Program-made: the position numbers and the translations under genes
The notes under the pieces: generated by a model
What the model saw: the letters and a program-made list of their open reading frames with translations, nothing else
Database searches by the model: none
What the model was told of the DNA's origin: nothing
In this document: positions 21,924 through 33,134 of the stretch, one piece after another
Layout of the letters: each line of letters starts with the position of its first letter
Position numbering within the stretch: the first letter of the stretch is position 1
From: Candidatus Gastranaerophilales bacterium
GTDB lineage: Bacteria > Cyanobacteriota > Vampirovibrionia > Gastranaerophilales > Gastranaerophilaceae
Direction: 5' to 3'
Assembly: GCA_944324485.1 (NCBI GenBank)
Contig: CALUWM010000010.1
Coordinates: 1-64,000, forward strand
DNA: 64,000 nucleotides

Positions 21924-22124
21924 AATTTCTCGCATTGTTTGCAATAGTATAAATATTCGAACGGCATTATAAAAAACAATAGTTGTCATAACCAAAAAGC
22001 TTATTAGGTGTATGTTTTACGGTTTATATAATTATTAAATTTTGTAAAGAATATTTAAAAACAAAAGGCAAAATTTACAATTTAGTGTTGTTTATATATA
22101 TGTGTTTAGTTGTTTGGGGTAAAA

Positions 22125-23126
22125 ATGCAACAAGTTCAAAATTCCAGTGTTGATAGTCTGCCTAAAATAGGCTACCGTGTCTCTAAAGAAAATAAAAAAG
22201 AAAATATTTATAAATCAGAATCACACATTCCAAAGCAAGGTCCCTTTATGGACATTAAAGCTGGTGCGCATAAACTTACAAACGATATTCTGACTTATTT
22301 TCCTAAAGGATTTTCAGGTTCAAAAAACAGCAATTTCTATGAATATCTTTCATTGGGCATGGTGCCTTATATTATAGGTAGCGGCATGTTAATTGGTCTT
22401 TACGGACTTGCAAACGGAAAATTTAACAGTTTTGATAAAGGAGCCGCAAATAAATTTGCAAAAAGAATGGGCGCAGGAGTTATTTTATATGGACTTGGCA
22501 AATGGCTCTCTAAAAAAATAGCACATTTGGGAATTTTTGCATCAACCGGAATAAATCTCGATTGGAAACTTTTAAACAAAGTAAACGAGCTACCTGAAAA
22601 TGGTCAAGAAAAAGGCTTAGTTAGAACTCAATACCCCGGAGTTTTTGATTCTGCCGATTTTCCAAGAAAAGATAAAACTGCTGTTTGGGGAGAACTTGAA
22701 CACGGAAATATATATGCCTTTGAAGATAAAATTCTAAAAAAAGCCGGATATAAAAAAGAACAAAACGCACCAAATCAAACGGCATGGCCATTGATTAGAG
22801 CAGTAAAAGTAAGAACAACAGCACTGGAAAACATAAGCAAATATATTGTTGCCGCAACAGGAGTAGCTCTCGGCTTTCAAAAATCTTTTGAAAATATTGA
22901 ACTTAAAAAACCAACGAGCATTTTAAAATCTCTTAAAAAAAGTTTTGGACAACTTTGGGAAGGCAACGAAAGAAACTTTGCTTCTAAACACTTTGGAAAA
23001 GCGCTCCTTATAGGGTCTGCTCTTGCAACGCTATTAACTTGGTTAATACCGACTTTGGAATTTAAATCCAAACCAAACACCATGGTCTCAAAAGTTGACA
23101 CCAAAAAAGAATTCGAGGTGGCATAA
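22125..23126 (+). CDS. Unknown membrane-associated protein A of the glucan-enzyme cluster
   Basis: 333 aa from the ATG at 22125 (SD GGGG five bases upstream). No signal peptide. Hydrophobic segments occur at about 80-100 (LGMVPYIIGSGMLIGLYGLA), 115-135 (MGAGVILYGLGKWLS), 255-270 and near the C-terminus (KALLIGSALATLLTWLIPTL). No known family. Its stop overlaps the next start (TAATG) with an SD-like GAGGTGG before it, so it is translationally coupled to protein B. It heads a four-gene run ending in two GH13-like proteins. Confidence 0.75.
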   Translation: MQQVQNSSVDSLPKIGYRVSKENKKENIYKSESHIPKQGPFMDIKAGAHKLTNDILTYFPKGFSGSKNSNFYEYLSLGMVPYIIGSGMLIGLYGLANGKFNSFDKGAANKFAKRMGAGVILYGLGKWLSKKIAHLGIFASTGINLDWKLLNKVNELPENGQEKGLVRTQYPGVFDSADFPRKDKTAVWGELEHGNIYAFEDKILKKAGYKKEQNAPNQTAWPLIRAVKVRTTALENISKYIVAATGVALGFQKSFENIELKKPTSILKSLKKSFGQLWEGNERNFASKHFGKALLIGSALATLLTWLIPTLEFKSKPNTMVSKVDTKKEFEVA

Positions 23127-25858
23127 TGACAATTACCATCAGTCCTTTTCTTAGAAATCAATTAAATAATAACAGACGATCAAATAACACAACAAATCAT
23201 CATGAAAAAATTTATGAAGATTTAAAACAACACGCAAATGACGTCAAACCAAATGACGCCAAAGCAAAACTTGTAAAACAAAATCCCATTTCAGGAACTG
23301 CTTCAGCTATTAAAGATAACTTCAATGACGGGCTAAACTTCTTTAAAGCTGCCAAAACTGGAAAAATGAATGATAACAACCTCGGAAGAATAAACGACCT
23401 TGGAATGAAAGCAGGAGCACTTCTTATTGCGACATTTTTAGCTACACACGCCAAAACAAAAACTGAGGCATTAATGCAATTTATAGGAGGAACAACTTTC
23501 TTTGCTTCAATGGCTCTTTGGCCAAAAATATTTATAAATCTTCCCGCAAGAATAATTCATGGATTTCCGATAGATGAAAAATATATAAGTGCACAAGGTG
23601 ATAAAAAAGACTTATACCTTGATAACCAATTTATTCCCACAGGACTTCACTCTAAAAAACAAAAAGAACGTGAAATGAAAAGAATGGGTATAAATCCTAA
23701 TGAACTTAATGCGGAAGAAAAATGGTTCAGAAAAAGACAAAAAACCGCACTTCAAAATAGAACATTATGGATGGCAACAGCAGGTTTTGCAACTCCTCTC
23801 ATGACAGCACTTGTAGGAAACTATGTTCAACCAAAAGTTGAAAATGCTGTTATTGAACATGAATTTAAAAAAGTAAAAGACATCTTATCAAATGATAATG
23901 CTTTAAATAACTACCTTATAAAACAACAAGACCTAAGTAACGTTGAAGCATTAGAGCATTTATTTACTCAAGTTAAAGGTAAAAAATTAGATGATGAATT
24001 TTATGAAAAATTAGCAGAACTTTTACAAATTGGCGATTTATCTCAAAATATGAAAGATAAAGACAATTGGAAACCGCTTGAAAGCTTAAAGCCAAATGAA
24101 CTGATAGAAGCTCTTAAAAAACTACAAGAACAAAAAAGTATAGTAGATGAAGAAAGCTTAAGAAAACTATTAGAAAATACACATCAAGCTACGGGTACAG
24201 CTTTAAAGCTCAATGGACCAAAAACAAAACTTTCAGAGGAAACAATAAATTCAATAATAGGACAACTTGGCGAAAATAAAACTCTTGAAAATTTAAGAAA
24301 AGTTTTAAATTTAAAAGAGACTAAAAAACAACTGGGCGATAAACAAATAGAGGCAATACTAAACGAAGTAGAAACCGATAATGAAGAATTTTTTAAAGCA
24401 ATTAGAGAATATAACAAGGGTTTCCTTTCAAAAATCAAAGGAAGAATAAAAGGGTTCCTTGATTTAATGAACCCTGTTGCAGGATCAAAATCTGAATCAA
24501 TCTACACAAAGCAATACAATGATTTAATGAGTGAAATTTCTAAAAGATTAGGAATAACAAAATATCAAGACCTTAAAAAAATTAAAGAACAAGGAAATAG
24601 TGCCGCAAAAAAATTATTGCAAGACAAAATAAAAGTTTTAATTGATGAGCAAGATAAAAATTATATTGATGGCTTCAATAAATTTGTTGACATTACAACA
24701 AGTCATCTTGGAGATAGAAATCTACAAAGCTTTGAAAATGACATAAGAGCAGCTTTTGGAGATAATTTTCCACTTCTTCGTGATAGAAAAAAACTGGAAG
24801 ACTTTTTAAAATATGTTAAATCAGCTGATGAATCAAATACCAAATTATTACCTGAAAATAAAACTTGGTTAATGCAAATCTTTGAAGATTATTCCACAAC
24901 CGAACAAAGCGCACCAAAGAAAGCTTCAATTGACGTGCTTAATTTTGAAGGAATAACAGGTAATAAAAAAGAAGCATCAAATAAACTTGGTGAAACATCA
25001 TCTTTAATGAAAATATTTAATGCAGGTACGCAAGATGAAACATATTTCAAAAAATTAGACGGGCTTACCAATGCTATAAATGATTTTTTAAGCGCAAAAA
25101 ATACAAATTATAATCAAGCAAAAGATACTTTAAGAGAAACTCTTAAAAACATTCTCGGAGAAGAGCATTCAATAGTTAGATTCGACCGTGAATTTGAAAA
25201 TTTTGCACAACATATAAAAAAAGATAATTATGTTTGGATAAATGAAATTCTAAGCGGAAGTAAAGCAGATCAAATTTTAACAAGTCAAATTCTCGGAGGA
25301 AAAGAACAACCATCACATTTATTCAATTTACTTTCTAGATATATCAAAAATAAAAATACAGATATTGACTATACAAGAGCAAAATTAATGATTTGCGCTA
25401 ATTTTGAAAGAAGAGCAAAGGAAGGATTTTTTGACGCTTTTGAAAACAATGAAATAGAAGCAATAAGAAATTTCTTATATGACGGAACAATTTCTGATGC
25501 AATTAACAATCTACAAATTCCAAATAAAGATACAGGAAAAAGTATACTAGAAGCAGTATTTGACTCATCTGTATTTAAATCCGAAGAAAAGGTAATGCCC
25601 GGAATCTCAAACATTATTGAATCCCTTAAGTCATTAGGTAGCGAAGCTAACAATTTCACAGAAAGAACCCTAAAAGCAAACAGTCTTTCAGACCAATTTA
25701 AAACATATGCTACAAGACTTTACAATAATAAAACTTGGATGAGAATATTTGCACCAATGGCAATAGGACTTGTAGCGGTAACTCTTTTAGTTCAACCATT
25801 TTTTGGAAATATCAAAAAAGAATTTCCGGAAGATAAAAAGTCGGGAGGTGCTAAATAA
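23126..25858 (+). CDS. Large unknown protein B of the glucan-enzyme cluster
   Basis: 910 aa, no signal peptide. The N-terminus MTITISPFLRNQLNNNRRSN is polar. Hydrophobic segments lie at about 93-108 (AGALLIATFLATHA), 113-140 (FIGGTTFFASMALWPKIFIN), 215-235 (LWMATAGFATPLMTALVG) and at the end (MRIFAPMAIGLVAVTLLV). Between them is a 600-residue helical, Lys/Glu/Asn-rich region with repeated ALEHLFTQVKGKKL- and LNLKETKKQLGDKQ-like patterns, possibly a helical-repeat scaffold. No family recognised. TAATG overlaps on both sides, with SD GGGAGGTG before the next gene, show coupling to A and to the first GH13-like gene. Confidence 0.75.
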   Translation: MTITISPFLRNQLNNNRRSNNTTNHHEKIYEDLKQHANDVKPNDAKAKLVKQNPISGTASAIKDNFNDGLNFFKAAKTGKMNDNNLGRINDLGMKAGALLIATFLATHAKTKTEALMQFIGGTTFFASMALWPKIFINLPARIIHGFPIDEKYISAQGDKKDLYLDNQFIPTGLHSKKQKEREMKRMGINPNELNAEEKWFRKRQKTALQNRTLWMATAGFATPLMTALVGNYVQPKVENAVIEHEFKKVKDILSNDNALNNYLIKQQDLSNVEALEHLFTQVKGKKLDDEFYEKLAELLQIGDLSQNMKDKDNWKPLESLKPNELIEALKKLQEQKSIVDEESLRKLLENTHQATGTALKLNGPKTKLSEETINSIIGQLGENKTLENLRKVLNLKETKKQLGDKQIEAILNEVETDNEEFFKAIREYNKGFLSKIKGRIKGFLDLMNPVAGSKSESIYTKQYNDLMSEISKRLGITKYQDLKKIKEQGNSAAKKLLQDKIKVLIDEQDKNYIDGFNKFVDITTSHLGDRNLQSFENDIRAAFGDNFPLLRDRKKLEDFLKYVKSADESNTKLLPENKTWLMQIFEDYSTTEQSAPKKASIDVLNFEGITGNKKEASNKLGETSSLMKIFNAGTQDETYFKKLDGLTNAINDFLSAKNTNYNQAKDTLRETLKNILGEEHSIVRFDREFENFAQHIKKDNYVWINEILSGSKADQILTSQILGGKEQPSHLFNLLSRYIKNKNTDIDYTRAKLMICANFERRAKEGFFDAFENNEIEAIRNFLYDGTISDAINNLQIPNKDTGKSILEAVFDSSVFKSEEKVMPGISNIIESLKSLGSEANNFTERTLKANSLSDQFKTYATRLYNNKTWMRIFAPMAIGLVAVTLLVQPFFGNIKKEFPEDKKSGGAK

Positions 25859-27744
25859 TGATTAACAGACCGATTAGCCCAATATTGGCACAAAAAATGA
25901 ATATTCAAGCAAACCAACAAGAACCTCAACAAAAACAAACAGTAGAGGCTAATTTCTCATACGACAATTTTAAATATTCTCCTCTTTTAAAACAAACTAT
26001 ACTGGCTCAATCAAAAAATATCTTAAGTGCAACAAAAACAAGTGCCATAAACCAAACAACAGAAAAAACAGAAAATTACAAAAATAATCTAAAATCAATG
26101 TTTTTAAATAACGAAGCTCAAATTCTTGCTGTCATAATCAGAACAATGAATGCTCAAGATACTGACGGAAATGAATTAATTCAAGGAGATGAAAAATCAG
26201 GAAATTTAATCAATGCAATAGACAGACTTGATGAAATAAAAAATACAGGCTTTAACACCCTTCATTTGCTTCCAATTCATCCTACCGGAAAAACAAAAGC
26301 AATGGGTACAGCAGGCTCACTCTACGCACCATTGGACTTTCTTGCTATCGATCCTGAAATTGTAGATGAAAATCCACCTGAAAAATATAAAAAAAGAATT
26401 GAAGAAATTTATCTGCAATTAACAGGCAAAAAACTAACAAAAATGGACAAAAATGATCCTGATGTTGCAAAAGCACAATGCAAACTGTTTTTAGAAGAAT
26501 GTCACAAAAGAAATATAAAAGCTATGCTTGATTTACCGTCTTGCGGAAGTGTTGATTTTGCAAAAAATCATCCCGAAATGATGGCAGTAGACGCAAACGG
26601 AAAAGAAAAAGTGCCTCAAGGATGGCAAGACATTAGAATGTTAAAACCATTCAAAAATGAAGAAACTCGTGAATTAAACGAATCAGTTCTTGATCTGCAC
26701 AAAAAATATGTTGATATGTGTGTTGAACTGGGTTTTGACGGTATAAGAGCAGATGTAGGCAGAGCAAAACCTGTTGAATTTTGGAATGTAATAATCAACT
26801 ATTCACACGCAAAAGATCCTCAATTTGCTTGGCTTGCAGAAACATACACACACGAAGACGCCTCTCCACAATTAAATATGCCATATGACAGACCAAAAGA
26901 ATTACTAGAAGTTGGTTTTGACGCATACTATGGTCAATATCACATATTTAACGAATGGACGCAAGCTAGTCAACTTTATGATTATGTAAAAGAAAATATA
27001 AATTTAAATAATGAAATCGGAAAACCAAAATCTCTTATAGGTTCATTTGCAACCCATGATGATTCTTCTCCGATGTTATATGGAGGTGCGCCTTGGGTAA
27101 TGTTTACAACCATTTTACAAGGAATGCTGCCACAACTAAATCCTTATATGATTGACGGAACACAAACAGGCGACTATTATATGTACCCGTATGACCATGC
27201 ATTAGTTAAAGAAACAGAAACCGATAACCATGAATGTACAGTACATACAGGAAGAATAGACATATTCAACAAATCAAGAAAACCGGGCGGAAAATTCCCC
27301 GAAATTGAAAATGTTGCAAAAACAATATTCTCCTTAAGAGACGGAAATTACAACGAAACAAATAAAAACTCGAACACTAAATTAAATATGCAAAACTCCA
27401 AAGATGTTATTACAAAAGGATCTTTTATAATACTTCCGACAAATAATCCTGAAATAATAGCATTTGCAAGACACAAAGACGGAAAAACATTAATATTTAT
27501 AGGTAATAGAAATGTAAACAGACCTGTTGGCGGTAAAATAACCATCCCGGGATTAAAACCTGAGCAAAAATTCAATAACCTAATGCCTAAATATGGAGAA
27601 GAATGTAAATTCCAAAACAATAAAAATGGCACTGTTACAGTTGAATTAGGCACATCAAGGGGATGTGTATTTGAAATTGATAATACCGAAATTGAAAAAT
27701 TATCAGACCCCAAAAACGTTATGCAACAAAAATATCTAAATTAA
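25858..27744 (+). CDS. GH13-like (alpha-amylase fold) enzyme, 628 aa
   Basis: Four GH13 regions can be placed: I, IKAMLDLPSCGSVDF (about 220-234); II, GFDGIRADVGRAKP with the nucleophile Asp299; III, FAWLAETY with acid/base Glu328; IV, FATHDDSS with Asp401 as third acid. A C-terminal beta domain (about 515-610) is also typical. So the catalytic triad seems intact and the protein should act on alpha-glucans, but the subfamily is unclear (regions I and IV deviate from the usual DxVxNH and NHD). No signal peptide: the first 80 residues are polar (MINRPISPILAQKMN, Gln-rich). Coupled to gene B; the next gene follows closely. Confidence 0.8.
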   Translation: MINRPISPILAQKMNIQANQQEPQQKQTVEANFSYDNFKYSPLLKQTILAQSKNILSATKTSAINQTTEKTENYKNNLKSMFLNNEAQILAVIIRTMNAQDTDGNELIQGDEKSGNLINAIDRLDEIKNTGFNTLHLLPIHPTGKTKAMGTAGSLYAPLDFLAIDPEIVDENPPEKYKKRIEEIYLQLTGKKLTKMDKNDPDVAKAQCKLFLEECHKRNIKAMLDLPSCGSVDFAKNHPEMMAVDANGKEKVPQGWQDIRMLKPFKNEETRELNESVLDLHKKYVDMCVELGFDGIRADVGRAKPVEFWNVIINYSHAKDPQFAWLAETYTHEDASPQLNMPYDRPKELLEVGFDAYYGQYHIFNEWTQASQLYDYVKENINLNNEIGKPKSLIGSFATHDDSSPMLYGGAPWVMFTTILQGMLPQLNPYMIDGTQTGDYYMYPYDHALVKETETDNHECTVHTGRIDIFNKSRKPGGKFPEIENVAKTIFSLRDGNYNETNKNSNTKLNMQNSKDVITKGSFIILPTNNPEIIAFARHKDGKTLIFIGNRNVNRPVGGKITIPGLKPEQKFNNLMPKYGEECKFQNNKNGTVTVELGTSRGCVFEIDNTEIEKLSDPKNVMQQKYLN

Positions 27745-27795
27745 ATGTTAAACAAATCAACTAAAGGGAACTATAAGACTATAAAAGGGAAAGCT

Positions 27796-30700
27796 ATGGA
27801 TTTATCTGTTAACAAAATAAAAGGAAACAACTTAAAATTTAAGGGTATGAAAGGTGCATTTCATAAAGACAATACACCCATTTTAAAATTTATTGCGCCA
27901 CCTTTTGACAGACAAAATGAAACAGTAACCCTTCAAATAGCTATGTTAAAGCAGGATAAAGAAACAAAACAATATGAACCGCTAGAACAAGAAAATATAA
28001 TGGAGCTTGATTTCGAAGATGACGGAACTTTGGTATTAAGCCAAGATAATGTTAGAGAATATTCAAGAAATTTTGCATACAGATACAAAATTACAAACAA
28101 AAACAATGGGCAAGAACGATATGTTGTTGATGGATTTAAAAAAATAAAACTTAAAGATAACAGCAAAATGAATCTTATTGAACAAAGCGACAACTACTTA
28201 ATAACCCCAAAAACGGGTCCTATGTATCATAGCTTTGTTGACTCAGATGCAATTTTAGATATCAACGGAAAACCTAAAAAATTTGATTCGGATTTTGTAA
28301 GAAATCATTTTAATAAGCTTGGCGGAAGCATCAAAGGGTTAACTTATTTATTAAAAAACACAAATGAACTTGAAAATTATAGATATATAATTACAACACC
28401 TGATATAGGAAATGATCCAACATCCAGCCATAAATATTGGCCAAGCAATCAATATCAATGCTCAAACATTGAAGATTTTAAAGAATTTATTTTTGAATTA
28501 TATAAACGAGGCAAAGGATATGTTGCAGACGGAGCTTTCACTTCGCAAGGCATACATTCTCCTATGGTGCAGCATGTTTTAAAATGGGGAGAAAATTCAC
28601 CCTTTTATAATATGCTTAAAGTCGATGGAAAAATAAATTTAGGGGTTTTACCTGATAAAACTTATGATGGAACAATAGAACCACAAGACTATATCGGTAT
28701 AAGAATAGTAAATTCTCCAAATATAAAAGGGTACGACAGCAAAAAACCAATCTATATACAGTTTTTTGATTCACGTCTTTCAAGTGATGAACAACAAAAC
28801 TCTAACGAACTGATAAAAGCATACGATAAAAATCCTTCTGACCATTATGATATAACCTCTCATCAAGATTCCATAATTCCTTATTATTTTGAAATAAATC
28901 CAAATGATGCAAAAAGACTAAAAGCTTTTGGAAAAAATAAGACAATATTATTAAAAGATATAGAAAGTTTAAACGATTTTCTAACTTTTGAAAATTTTTC
29001 AATTGTAGAAAAATCTAAAGCTTCAGGAGCAAATTTCTGGGATGGCAACCGTGACATCATTAAAATGAACCTTTCCAATCCTACAAACTCAAGAATAGAC
29101 ATTGAAGGGTACAAAAACGCCAGAGATTATCTTTTTGGAGTTGCAAGTTTTTGGAGCGAAACTATTCAATCAGATTTAATCTTGAAAACTGCATTAATGG
29201 GTAATTCTGAAAGGAAACAAACAGCAATACAAAACGACCTTTCTGAAGAAGAATATAAAGAATTAACAAAATCCCATTCTGAAGTAAAATCATTTATCCT
29301 TGAACAAGGAAAAACAGTTGAAGATTATATAAAAGAATTCCCGCTTCAATCGATTGAAACAAACCCAAATTTAAGCGCTGTATTTTCTGAACCAAAATTC
29401 AATGAAGAACTTCTTTCAAAGGATACGTTTGAAGAAATACGAACAATTGTAAATGATGTAATAGATGAAGCAATACCTGATGAATACAAACAAGATGACG
29501 ATTATAGAGTTTATGTTACAAAGCTCTATACACCAACAATACTAAAAAATATATATGCAGGAGCATTATGCCCCAATGCAATAGAAGATGACGGAACAAT
29601 TAATCAAAACGAAATGAAAAAAGTTTCGCTAAATTCCCTAAATGCAGCAAATGCAACCACTCCGGAAGAAGAAAGAAAAATAGTAATAAGAAAAATAACA
29701 AACGGCATCAATAGAGAAACAACTGAAAAAATTAAACAAAAAATGAAAAAAGATCTGCAAAATATAGACCTTAATGGTTTTAAACTTGCAGAAAGTATAG
29801 TTATTCAAGGAAAAGCCGGTCTAAACTGGAGATTTGATGCAGCTAAAGACATAGGTGATTTAGATTCCGTAAGAGACAAAACTGCAAGCTTTAAAAGTAT
29901 TATGGATGGAGACAATCAATTCCCGGGAGTAAAACAATTTTGGACTAAATTTATCTCTAATGCTGCAAAATACAACCCTTCTTTATATAGTATTGAAGAA
30001 ATAACTGATTTTTGGGCATTTGCAGATAAAGAAGATATGCTAAATAAGAACTTTGACGAAAAGCTTGATGCTTGGTTTAAATCACTTTCTGAAGAAGAGC
30101 AAAAAATTCACGAAAATCAAATGCCATATGTAAAAGAAATAGAATTTATTAATTCAACAGGAGCAACAACAAGCTCTAATTATGATGCTTATTTTAATAA
30201 TTTAACCGCTTATCTGGGGGTTGATCCGGAAAATGGTTATGATAAAAGCCATGATGCAGGAAATATAGTTCAACTTAAAAAAAGAATGGAAAACTTTATT
30301 GCTAGTGTACAACCAAACATGGCTATACTTTCTCATATGTTTTTTGATAACCATGATAAGCCCCGTATTCTTCATACCCTGCCTATAAATATGGAATTAT
30401 TCTCCAAAATAAATATGCAATACGCATCCGAAGAAGATAAAAAACAAGCAGCTCCCCTTTTAGAAGGAAGAACAGATTATAAACGAATCTCTGCTAAAGC
30501 GGTTGCAGTTGGCTTATTAATGAAAAAAAACATAGATGAAATATATAAAAACGATCCGGACAAGAAAGATAAACTAACAAAATCATTAATTAATCTTGTA
30601 AATGGCAAATCAAGTGCTTCTCCAAAACCAAATTTTAAAAGAGCAGAAGCATTTGGTACAACTCCATATGAAATATCAACACGTGATATATTCAAAAATG

Positions 30701-31650
30701 CCGGTTATGATAATAACGAAGATGAAATTATAGCATTCCACTACAATCTAAAGAAAAATTCAATGCACTTGCAAGAAAACTTGTGGGAAGTGATGAATGC
30801 CATAATGGGTACTCCTAGCATATTTTATGGTACAAACTTTGGTCAAACAGGCTATGAAACAGCTTCAAAAAACGTTTATGTTCAAAACAGAAATCAAGCA
30901 ATGCATGAACTACAATACAAAAACGGTTACAAGGAATTTTATAAGAAAATAAATGCCATTACAGAGCTATATAAACAACCGGGTTTAAGCGCTCTAAGAA
31001 ACGGTTTTCCAATTTCTCTTAAAAACACAAGTGCAATCAATGGCGTTCATCCCGGTGCGGTTCTGTATTTTAGAGAAAAAATCAAAGAATATGCCGAAAA
31101 AGAAAATAAGACATTTGATGAAATTATAGGAATTATAAATTCAAAAAATAAAAATGAAGGCAAACAGGAATATGAAAGATTTTTATCTGAAGATTTAAAA
31201 ATAGATGGTGCAAACGGAAATTTTGAAACACTAAAAAACGCACTATATGGATTAAACCCTGAAAATCCTTCGACAGAAAAGAATATTGACTTATGGCCAA
31301 TTTTTAAATACGACGAAAAAGGCTCAAAAACAATAAGTATAATTACAAATAATGGTATAACAAGAAAAAAACAGTCGTATAAAGCTAATAGCTCCAATAA
31401 AACATATAAAGTTATGGGTATTCCGATAAAAGATAATTCAGATAGATGTCCTCTTGAAGAAGGAACAAAGGTCGTAAGAAAAATTTATGATAGCAAAAAT
31501 GAAAAATTTGTTGACGATAAAACAGAATATGTCATTAAAAACGGAAACGTTCAATCAGTAAACGGAGACCCAATTCAGTTAACTGAAACTGTTGAAACAT
31601 TCTATGTACCCAATCAAACAAATATCAACGTAAAATATAGAACGAGATAA
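27796..31650 (+). CDS. Very large GH13-like protein (1284 aa)
   Basis: Start ATG 27796 has SD AAGGGA; an ATG at 27745 directly after the previous stop has none. N-terminus MDLSVNKIKGNNLKFKGMKG, then a beta-sandwich-like module (about 20-125) as in GH13 enzymes with N-terminal carbohydrate modules. Candidate GH13 regions (numbering from 27796): I, GYVADGAFTSQGIHSP near 245; II, LNWRFDAAKDI with Asp681; III, KEIEF near 781-783; IV, FFDNHDKPR with Asp854. Regions I and II are about 435 residues apart, far more than in typical members, so a large insert splits the barrel. MNAIMGTPSIFYGTNFG fits the late barrel. No signal peptide. Activity probable but unproven. Confidence 0.75.
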   Translation: MDLSVNKIKGNNLKFKGMKGAFHKDNTPILKFIAPPFDRQNETVTLQIAMLKQDKETKQYEPLEQENIMELDFEDDGTLVLSQDNVREYSRNFAYRYKITNKNNGQERYVVDGFKKIKLKDNSKMNLIEQSDNYLITPKTGPMYHSFVDSDAILDINGKPKKFDSDFVRNHFNKLGGSIKGLTYLLKNTNELENYRYIITTPDIGNDPTSSHKYWPSNQYQCSNIEDFKEFIFELYKRGKGYVADGAFTSQGIHSPMVQHVLKWGENSPFYNMLKVDGKINLGVLPDKTYDGTIEPQDYIGIRIVNSPNIKGYDSKKPIYIQFFDSRLSSDEQQNSNELIKAYDKNPSDHYDITSHQDSIIPYYFEINPNDAKRLKAFGKNKTILLKDIESLNDFLTFENFSIVEKSKASGANFWDGNRDIIKMNLSNPTNSRIDIEGYKNARDYLFGVASFWSETIQSDLILKTALMGNSERKQTAIQNDLSEEEYKELTKSHSEVKSFILEQGKTVEDYIKEFPLQSIETNPNLSAVFSEPKFNEELLSKDTFEEIRTIVNDVIDEAIPDEYKQDDDYRVYVTKLYTPTILKNIYAGALCPNAIEDDGTINQNEMKKVSLNSLNAANATTPEEERKIVIRKITNGINRETTEKIKQKMKKDLQNIDLNGFKLAESIVIQGKAGLNWRFDAAKDIGDLDSVRDKTASFKSIMDGDNQFPGVKQFWTKFISNAAKYNPSLYSIEEITDFWAFADKEDMLNKNFDEKLDAWFKSLSEEEQKIHENQMPYVKEIEFINSTGATTSSNYDAYFNNLTAYLGVDPENGYDKSHDAGNIVQLKKRMENFIASVQPNMAILSHMFFDNHDKPRILHTLPINMELFSKINMQYASEEDKKQAAPLLEGRTDYKRISAKAVAVGLLMKKNIDEIYKNDPDKKDKLTKSLINLVNGKSSASPKPNFKRAEAFGTTPYEISTRDIFKNAGYDNNEDEIIAFHYNLKKNSMHLQENLWEVMNAIMGTPSIFYGTNFGQTGYETASKNVYVQNRNQAMHELQYKNGYKEFYKKINAITELYKQPGLSALRNGFPISLKNTSAINGVHPGAVLYFREKIKEYAEKENKTFDEIIGIINSKNKNEGKQEYERFLSEDLKIDGANGNFETLKNALYGLNPENPSTEKNIDLWPIFKYDEKGSKTISIITNNGITRKKQSYKANSSNKTYKVMGIPIKDNSDRCPLEEGTKVVRKIYDSKNEKFVDDKTEYVIKNGNVQSVNGDPIQLTETVETFYVPNQTNINVKYRTR

Positions 31651-31655
31651 TATAA

Positions 31656-33134
31656 TTAAATAATTTTTACACTAAAATCATCTTTTAAAGCCTCAATAAC
31701 ATGTGGGTTTATGAGTGCTTGCGGACAATTCGAGAGCAAAATTTCATCAACTTGACCCAAAAGCGAAAGGACCATAAATAAACTTGTTAAATTACATTGT
31801 GCAAAAAATAATGTAATTTTAACATTTTTGGCTTTTAATTTTTTTATTGCTCCAATTAAAATATCCGCTTCACAAGGACAATTTAAATTTATAATTTTTT
31901 TATTTTCATATACGCTTAAAGTTTCAAAATCAACCTTACCAGTTATTATTACGACTTCATTTTCTTTAAATTCTTCAATAATTTTATTAACATCTTTAAT
32001 ATCATAATTAACATCAATATATTTTTTTTCTAAATCTTTATTGAAACCATCAAGCTTCAAAGCTGACTGTACAACAGGATTATAATTATCATTTTGTATA
32101 TCAAAAACTTTACTAAATGAAATTATTTTATTTGAAAATATTTCACCTCTATATAAACTATCTATTTTTTGAATAAAATTTTGAGTTATTAAAATTGACC
32201 CCGGAAAAACAGAAAAATCGTACTCTGCATTATCTGTTCCATAATGACCCTTTAAAAATCTATTGTTTTTAAAATATGGGTAAAAATGAGCTAAAAATAA
32301 AGCGCCATTTGTATATACATTAACATCATCTTCAAATAATCCTTCAATTTTCATGTTTTCAAGAGTATTTAAAAGCTTTTGTAATTCATCAAGATCATCG
32401 CCTGAAACAAGTATGCAATGACCTTTTGAAGGGCTTATATTGACTGAAGCATTTTCTTTATCTCCAAATCTTTCTTTATATACTTTAAAAAGCATTTCAC
32501 GAATTTTTAAAGCCGAATTTGAAAATTCCAAAATCCTTCTTATGATTTTTTCATCTCTAATTGAATAACCATTGGTTAAAGCAAAAAATCTTATTATTTC
32601 ATAATCAAAATCATTAAAATTTTGCTCAAATTTCTTAATTTTTACAACATCGATTGCAGCCAATCTTGCAAAAATTGTAATTAATTCGAAAAGTCTAAAT
32701 TTCTTTTTGTCACAATTCTTCTGTCTTATAACAATATTATTTTGAGAAAACTCAATTAATTCATTTATTGTAATATTATCATTTATTTCAAAATTAGCAT
32801 TTATAATTTCACAAGGAAGTTGATTATTTGAACAATAACCTATGTAACTTTTTTTAACTTCTTTTTTATATGAATTTAATTTTTTAAAAAGTTCTATATA
32901 TTTTTTCTGATTAAAACTTGTATTTATTAGAAAAATAGATAATACATCAATCAAAAGAATAACAGCTTCTTTATTTGACATCTTAAATTCATTTAACTTA
33001 ACTAAATAAAAAGCTAATTCTCTTGCTTCACTTAAAAGCAATTCATACAAAGAATTAACGCTCGGATGAATTGAACAAACACCCGATAATTGACAAGCAT
33101 TTTTTTCCGCAATATTTTTAAAAAATTCGTACAT
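31656..33134 (-). CDS. Degenerate hybrid-cluster-protein (Hcp) homologue
   Basis: 492 aa. The fold matches Hcp along its length: ACQLSGVCSIHPSVNSLYEL (Hcp: GCTxxGVCG...LQDLL), ILVSGDDLDELQKLL (Hcp: VSGHDL), NVYTNGALFLAHFYPYFKNN (Hcp: VYTHGEMLPAHxYP), SVFPGSILITQNFI (Hcp: GPxLxTTNCI), AQCNLTSLFMVLSLL (Hcp: QCND) and the end LINPHVIEALKDDFSV. But several metal ligands are gone: the N-terminal CxxC pair is absent, His in GHD is Asp, Glu in THGE is Ala, Cys in TNC is Phe. So it probably cannot build the 4Fe-2O-2S cluster and is a derived paralogue of unknown role. ATG 33134, no SD. Confidence 0.75.
   Translation of the reverse strand: MYEFFKNIAEKNACQLSGVCSIHPSVNSLYELLLSEARELAFYLVKLNEFKMSNKEAVILLIDVLSIFLINTSFNQKKYIELFKKLNSYKKEVKKSYIGYCSNNQLPCEIINANFEINDNITINELIEFSQNNIVIRQKNCDKKKFRLFELITIFARLAAIDVVKIKKFEQNFNDFDYEIIRFFALTNGYSIRDEKIIRRILEFSNSALKIREMLFKVYKERFGDKENASVNISPSKGHCILVSGDDLDELQKLLNTLENMKIEGLFEDDVNVYTNGALFLAHFYPYFKNNRFLKGHYGTDNAEYDFSVFPGSILITQNFIQKIDSLYRGEIFSNKIISFSKVFDIQNDNYNPVVQSALKLDGFNKDLEKKYIDVNYDIKDVNKIIEEFKENEVVIITGKVDFETLSVYENKKIINLNCPCEADILIGAIKKLKAKNVKITLFFAQCNLTSLFMVLSLLGQVDEILLSNCPQALINPHVIEALKDDFSVKII

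Follow-up and report, generated by a model that had tools for sequence, protein, structure and literature searches.

A conserved gene block of Gastranaerophilales combines two GH13 proteins with two new membrane-type protein families

Introduction

Gastranaerophilales is a non-photosynthetic, mostly gut-dwelling order of the Cyanobacteriota. The described systems that come closest to the locus reported here are the classical Glg gene set, Sus-type starch utilisation and, at the level of single proteins, the GH13 enzymes. General use of glycogen, starch and alpha-amylase has been reported for the Gastranaerophilales/Melainabacteria (PMC3787301, PMC4040986).

Here, we describe four genes, termed A to D, from the 1.72 Mb genome (59 contigs) of a Candidatus Gastranaerophilales bacterium; the window is the whole stretch of 64,000 nucleotides that was analysed. 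What the block would share with the classical Glg gene set is an alpha-glucan handled in the cytoplasm, as we propose for A-D. However, it is not a classical glycogen operon, as there is no GlgA, GlgB, GlgC or GlgP among A-D, it encodes two membrane-type proteins, and its GH13 members come from other branches. Similarly, the block resembles Sus-type starch utilisation in bringing together GH13 enzymes and membrane-associated proteins in gut bacteria, but its products lack signal peptides and A and B match neither SusC, SusD nor TonB-dependent receptors; no homologue of A or B matches the SusC/SusD-like Pfam families at E<=0.01. No description of the A-D cluster was found in the literature searched. 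The block joins known enzyme types to two new membrane-type families that have no relative in Pfam or NCBIfam.

Results

The four genes lie on the plus strand, as do all features of the block given below. Gene A (22125-23126) encodes a lineage-specific, all-helical membrane-type protein of 333 amino acids, for which an alternative in-frame TTG start is possible upstream, at 22110. Gene B (23126-25858) encodes 910 amino acids: an N-terminal domain resembling A, followed by a long helical central part and, near the C-terminus, a hydrophobic helix. Gene C (25858-27744) specifies a GH13 enzyme of 628 amino acids without a signal peptide, and gene D (27796-31650) a divergent GH13 enzyme of 1284 amino acids. 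The A/B and B/C junctions are TAATG overlaps, with GAGGTGG and GGGAGGTG upstream, respectively, both of which are good ribosome-binding sites, while C and D are separated by 51 nt, with GGGA upstream of the start of D. The ORF coordinates are those expected from the preliminary description, which had reported four plus-strand genes, two TAATG overlaps and a last gap of 51 nt, and inspection and hydropathy bore out its claim that none of the four proteins has a signal peptide. An alternative in-frame ATG for D at 27745, directly after the stop of C, would add 17 amino acids; the homologues of D begin near the equivalent of 27796, not 27745. A promoter and terminator scan gave no signal above shuffles.

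A genome collection was scanned with C as bait, and the best 80 of 541 candidate loci, a sample biased to close relatives of C, were read with profiles of A-D built from 23-30 homologues each. Among these best 80 of 541, A, B and C occur in the same order and on the same strand in all 75 loci that have enough flank, and the remaining five begin at a contig edge. D lies directly after C in 42 of the same 80 loci and elsewhere in the genome in many other genera. Thus, of the four-gene cluster proposed in the preliminary description, the A-B-C unit stands, whereas D need not belong to it. A and B almost always adjoin a GH13 gene in this profile scan, and homologues mostly without GH13 neighbours were not seen. 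C is 87-89% identical in the nearest Candidatus Gastranaerophilales relatives. By gene clustering, the flanks of A-B-C fall into several unrelated sets according to lineage: in the genus of the window the block is preceded by rsmG-type and TPR-protein genes and followed by a hybrid-cluster-like gene, and other genera have KDO-synthesis-type and UppP-type genes upstream (names read from sequence). A fixed block between changing flanks indicates that A-B-C is kept together by selection, and the recurrence of the A-D block across the order while its neighbours change is far beyond chance.

In a sample of 292 genomes of the phylum, A was found in 131, all from the Gastranaerophilales family of the window except one from another family of the order, and it was absent from all other members of the class and phylum searched in that sample, photosynthetic cyanobacteria included. 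A is present in every sampled genome of the family, where the block is near-universal, and in most of the order. Among 58 closer relatives, A was detected in 49, B in 50, C in 52 (one match to C reaching only E 1e-3) and D in 49. When one A gene that is truncated where its contig stops is counted, 50 of these genomes have both A and C, one has C only, none has A only and seven have neither (Fisher p 2.7e-8, a guide only since the genomes share ancestry); the single C-only genome is 66% complete. Some members of the order without the block still have GlgA-type enzymes. No relative of C was found in the viral contigs searched.

Single-sequence scans of C and D against Pfam and NCBIfam gave nothing over cut-off. 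The GH13 regions that had been noted in both proteins were confirmed through their homologues and profiles: PF00128 is matched by 19 of 27 C homologues at E<=1e-3 (best 5.5e-11) and by 12 of 23 D homologues (best 3.8e-25), both profiles match GH13 structures in the PDB, and both proteins have an intact triad. By these matches, C and D belong to GH13. C is the most conserved of the four proteins, with a mean identity of 72% in the genus, and its profile matches 4gkl and 3dhu, which are alpha-amylases, and 1gju, a maltodextrin glycosyltransferase (E 7e-30, 3e-25 and 1e-24, respectively); in sequence it resembles alpha-amylases and maltosyltransferases. Common to C and these structures are the catalytic Asp/Glu/Asp and, close to the first strand, a Ca-loop-like DxDGN, but C has an N-terminal extension of its own, a motif I of DLPSC where DxxxNH is usual, and a gene that lies alongside those of membrane-type proteins. 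Asp299 (26752-26754; GFDGIRADV) would be the nucleophile and Glu328 (26839-26841; LAET) the acid/base, both within the stretch aligned to 3dhu, and Asp401 (27058-27060; ATHDD) would be the third catalytic residue by motif reading. All three are invariant in the 27-30 homologues of C.

The best PDB matches of the D profile (E 2.4e-23) are of the neopullulanase, cyclomaltodextrinase and maltogenic amylase type (2z1k, 1ea9 and 1sma). In this, and in its intact triad, D resembles neopullulanases and cyclomaltodextrinases, but it adds a large insertion, of about 400 amino acids between barrel motifs I and II, is 1250-1450 amino acids long across its homologues and carries an N-terminal F-x-G tag; a place in the neopullulanase subfamily is suggested by the type of the best matches, while no NCBIfam model was matched and D is twice as long. 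The positions of the nucleophile and the third catalytic residue fall on Asp681 (29836-29838; NWRFDAAKD) and Asp854 (30355-30357; DNHDKPR) by motif reading, and that of the acid/base on Glu735 (29998-30000), in a stretch aligned with 2z1k and 1ea9; all three residues are invariant in 23/23 homologues. Because their catalytic residues do not vary, C and D look like working enzymes. Most genomes of the genus also encode a paralogue of C, which has a typical signal peptide in the copies examined (L073:7366-8913, minus strand; G000:C12). That C has no signal peptide while its paralogue has one supports a cytoplasmic place for C, and both C and D are very probably cytoplasmic.

Single-sequence scans of A and B against Pfam and NCBIfam gave nothing over cut-off, a Pfam scan of 25-26 homologues of each gave only isolated single-member matches, and the A profile found no relative in the PDB by sequence. 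The two proteins are therefore of no known family, as first described, and membership of a known unrelated family was not seen. A correction to that description is that the two proteins have one domain in common: hhalign aligns A with the first quarter of B (probability 97.3, E 1.8e-11, 204 columns), placing the A-homologous domain of B at residues of about 39-250 (23240-23875), and the A profile retrieves B genes. The several hydrophobic stretches reported earlier are present in both proteins and are moderate, with hydropathy peak means mostly of 1.5-2.0, so that membrane insertion of A and B is likely rather than certain. Near its C-terminus B has a long hydrophobic helix (residues 854-888; 25685-25789), visible in both hydropathy and predicted structure. 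A is predicted to be mostly helical with moderate confidence (AlphaFold2 pLDDT 78.6, pTM 0.74), and the prediction for B (pLDDT 74.6, pTM 0.65), also mostly helical, supports the long helical centre noted previously. The best fold matches, with Z 6.0 for A (rmsd 4.9 over 87) and Z 5.2 for B (rmsd 4.7 over 152), do not rise above what generic helical bundles give, and Foldseek found no match for A below E 0.2; matches to generic helical bundles, the V-ATPase c-ring and designed bundles were set aside. Both proteins evolve fast and are without enzyme-like motifs. A single B homologue of 26 matches VMAP-M1 (E 8.8e-7).

The genome that holds the block also encodes GlgA (485 amino acids), a GT35-type/GlgP-type phosphorylase, GH77 and a GlgX-like protein, the first three on other contigs than A-D. 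Since the classical glycogen enzymes are present as well, A-D would be an addition to ordinary glycogen metabolism and not a replacement for it. Beside the normal GlgA there is a second GT5 protein of 876 amino acids (L177:511-3141, minus strand; G000:C2:69.1-71.7 kb). Its N-terminus has two hydrophobic stretches and its KxGGL and EPCGL motifs are intact, so that it can be read as a glycogen-synthase-like enzyme anchored in the membrane; in the order, long GT5 proteins are common, though not universal. A GlgB/TreZ-like, branching-enzyme-like GH13 protein of about 790 amino acids (799 in the window's genome; L157:10834-13233 and L054:297-2651, minus strand) has clear relatives in roughly half of the genomes, and in genus g14, and only there, its gene comes immediately after D in the same orientation. 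Two genomes of family f6 have D as the next member of a same-strand gene run that includes a gene for a GPH sucrose-type symporter. Together, the glycogen enzymes, the second GT5 and the g14 and f6 neighbours fit a cytoplasmic handling of alpha-glucan or alpha-glucoside. Neither the membrane-type GT5 nor the branching-like GH13 tracks the block strictly; the idea of a strict phylogenetic profile was rejected, and both count as supporting context only.

Discussion

Based on these observations, we propose that A, B and C, with D where it is adjacent, act in Gastranaerophilales as a membrane-platform unit that processes alpha-glucan on the cytoplasmic side, a model to which we would give about an even chance. 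A and B, which have a hydrophobic helical domain in common, would form a platform at the membrane. The long helical centre of B would hold the enzymes; B as a scaffold is plausible, as is glucan as the substrate. Glycogen or maltodextrin would be brought to the membrane, where C, which is amylase/maltosyltransferase-like, and D, which is neopullulanase/cyclomaltodextrinase-like, would cut or transfer alpha-glucosidic bonds, degrading or rearranging the substrate at the inner face. The membrane insertion, the physical complex, the substrate and the reaction are what we infer here; counting against the model are the moderate hydropathy of A and B, the separation of D from the block in about half of the genomes, the GlgA-type enzymes of some order members without the block, and the loose tracking of the block by the membrane-type GT5 and the branching-like GH13.

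The N-terminus of D bears on a different model. Its F-x-G tag (27838-27846; LKFKG, with F15 and G17) is invariant at F and G in 23/23 homologues, while the rest of the N-terminus is variable. The pattern [ILV].F[KTSQRG]G falls within the first 60 residues in 18 of 712 ORFs as against 18 of 2585 windows elsewhere (p 1.5e-4), and starts of the form M-x(1,5)-ISP occur in 7 of 712 as against 2 of 4375 (p 3e-5); these counts cover half of the genome (849 kb, 712 ORFs), the patterns were chosen post hoc and some matches are ordinary proteins. B and C of the window's genome start with ISP. A tag common to all four proteins was considered and rejected, as it is consistent only in D. One could imagine non-classical export, in which C and D leave the cell or reach its surface by a pathway that uses the N-terminal tag and includes A and B, and there break down starch from the diet. 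The gut habitat would suit such a role, as would an invariant F-x-G following a polar variable stretch in a protein without a signal peptide and the occurrence of other tagged proteins in the genome. However, the lineage already secretes a C paralogue and a TreS-like GH13 that bear ordinary signal peptides, homologues of A and B do not carry the tag clearly above background and those of C do so only sporadically, and A and B are unlike any secretion protein by sequence; we consider export unlikely.

Also unlikely, and a little more so, is that A and B have a part in membrane shaping or in an unknown compartment, with their GH13 partners in a role other than glucan turnover, for example sensing. 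Fast evolution without enzyme-like motifs, the predicted long helical form of B and the ability of D to leave the block would all be in keeping with this, but the invariant catalytic residues of C and D argue for an enzymatic activity that has been kept. We find it harder still to favour a model in which A and B export a capsule-like surface alpha-glucan or provide the place where it is assembled, with C and D trimming it inside the cell: although A and B are membrane-type and the same genome encodes a branching-like GH13 and a GT5 that carries hydrophobic helices at its N-terminus, neither A nor B shows a transporter signature in Pfam or the fold search, and gene clustering, with neighbours annotated in part, revealed no consistently linked transporter gene. 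Finally, lineage-specific genes can remain adjacent by descent, but co-inheritance without joint function is very improbable given that the order and overlaps of A-B-C persist across several families while both flanks change and that A and C are present or absent jointly.

If the membrane-platform model is true, a whole order of common animal-gut bacteria uses a membrane-linked unit for storage glucan, and no other group tested has one. Given its near-universality in the family and its absence from those photosynthetic cyanobacteria that were searched, the block may be among the traits that accompanied the group's fermentative, host-associated life. A-D also represent concrete targets in a lineage of which hardly any members are in culture.

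Several proteins without signal peptides begin with a polar variable stretch, often M-x-ISP or M-x-ISA, followed by an xSFKG-type motif (L156:12495-14888, L162:7365-8288, L163:2337-3467, L181:1916-2395, L192:8377-9123, L197:8775-9698 and L197:9873-10967). This motif is a possible lineage-specific N-terminal address tag. A broader scheme, which we hold to be as hard to favour as the surface-glucan model, would have A and B build a membrane-bound compartment or platform to which a dedicated N-terminal address tag (M-x-ISP... xSFKG) directs a second set of glucan enzymes, namely C, D, the membrane-anchored glycogen-synthase-like protein and the branching-like GH13, together with other tagged proteins.

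Three further neighbourhoods deserve mention. In family f6 (L068:1269-3501 and L069:7092-9281), D lies behind genes for the GPH symporter and a xylose-isomerase-like TIM-barrel protein. Downstream of the block in the window, 31656-33134 on the minus strand encodes a prismane/hybrid-cluster-like protein of 492 amino acids, which hydroxylamine reductase models match below cut-off and only in its first 390 residues. A coiled-coil-rich protein of 713 amino acids with an EF-hand-like DKDGNGDLSSEEL loop is encoded at L157:13394-15535 (minus strand), upstream of the gene for the GlgB-like GH13.
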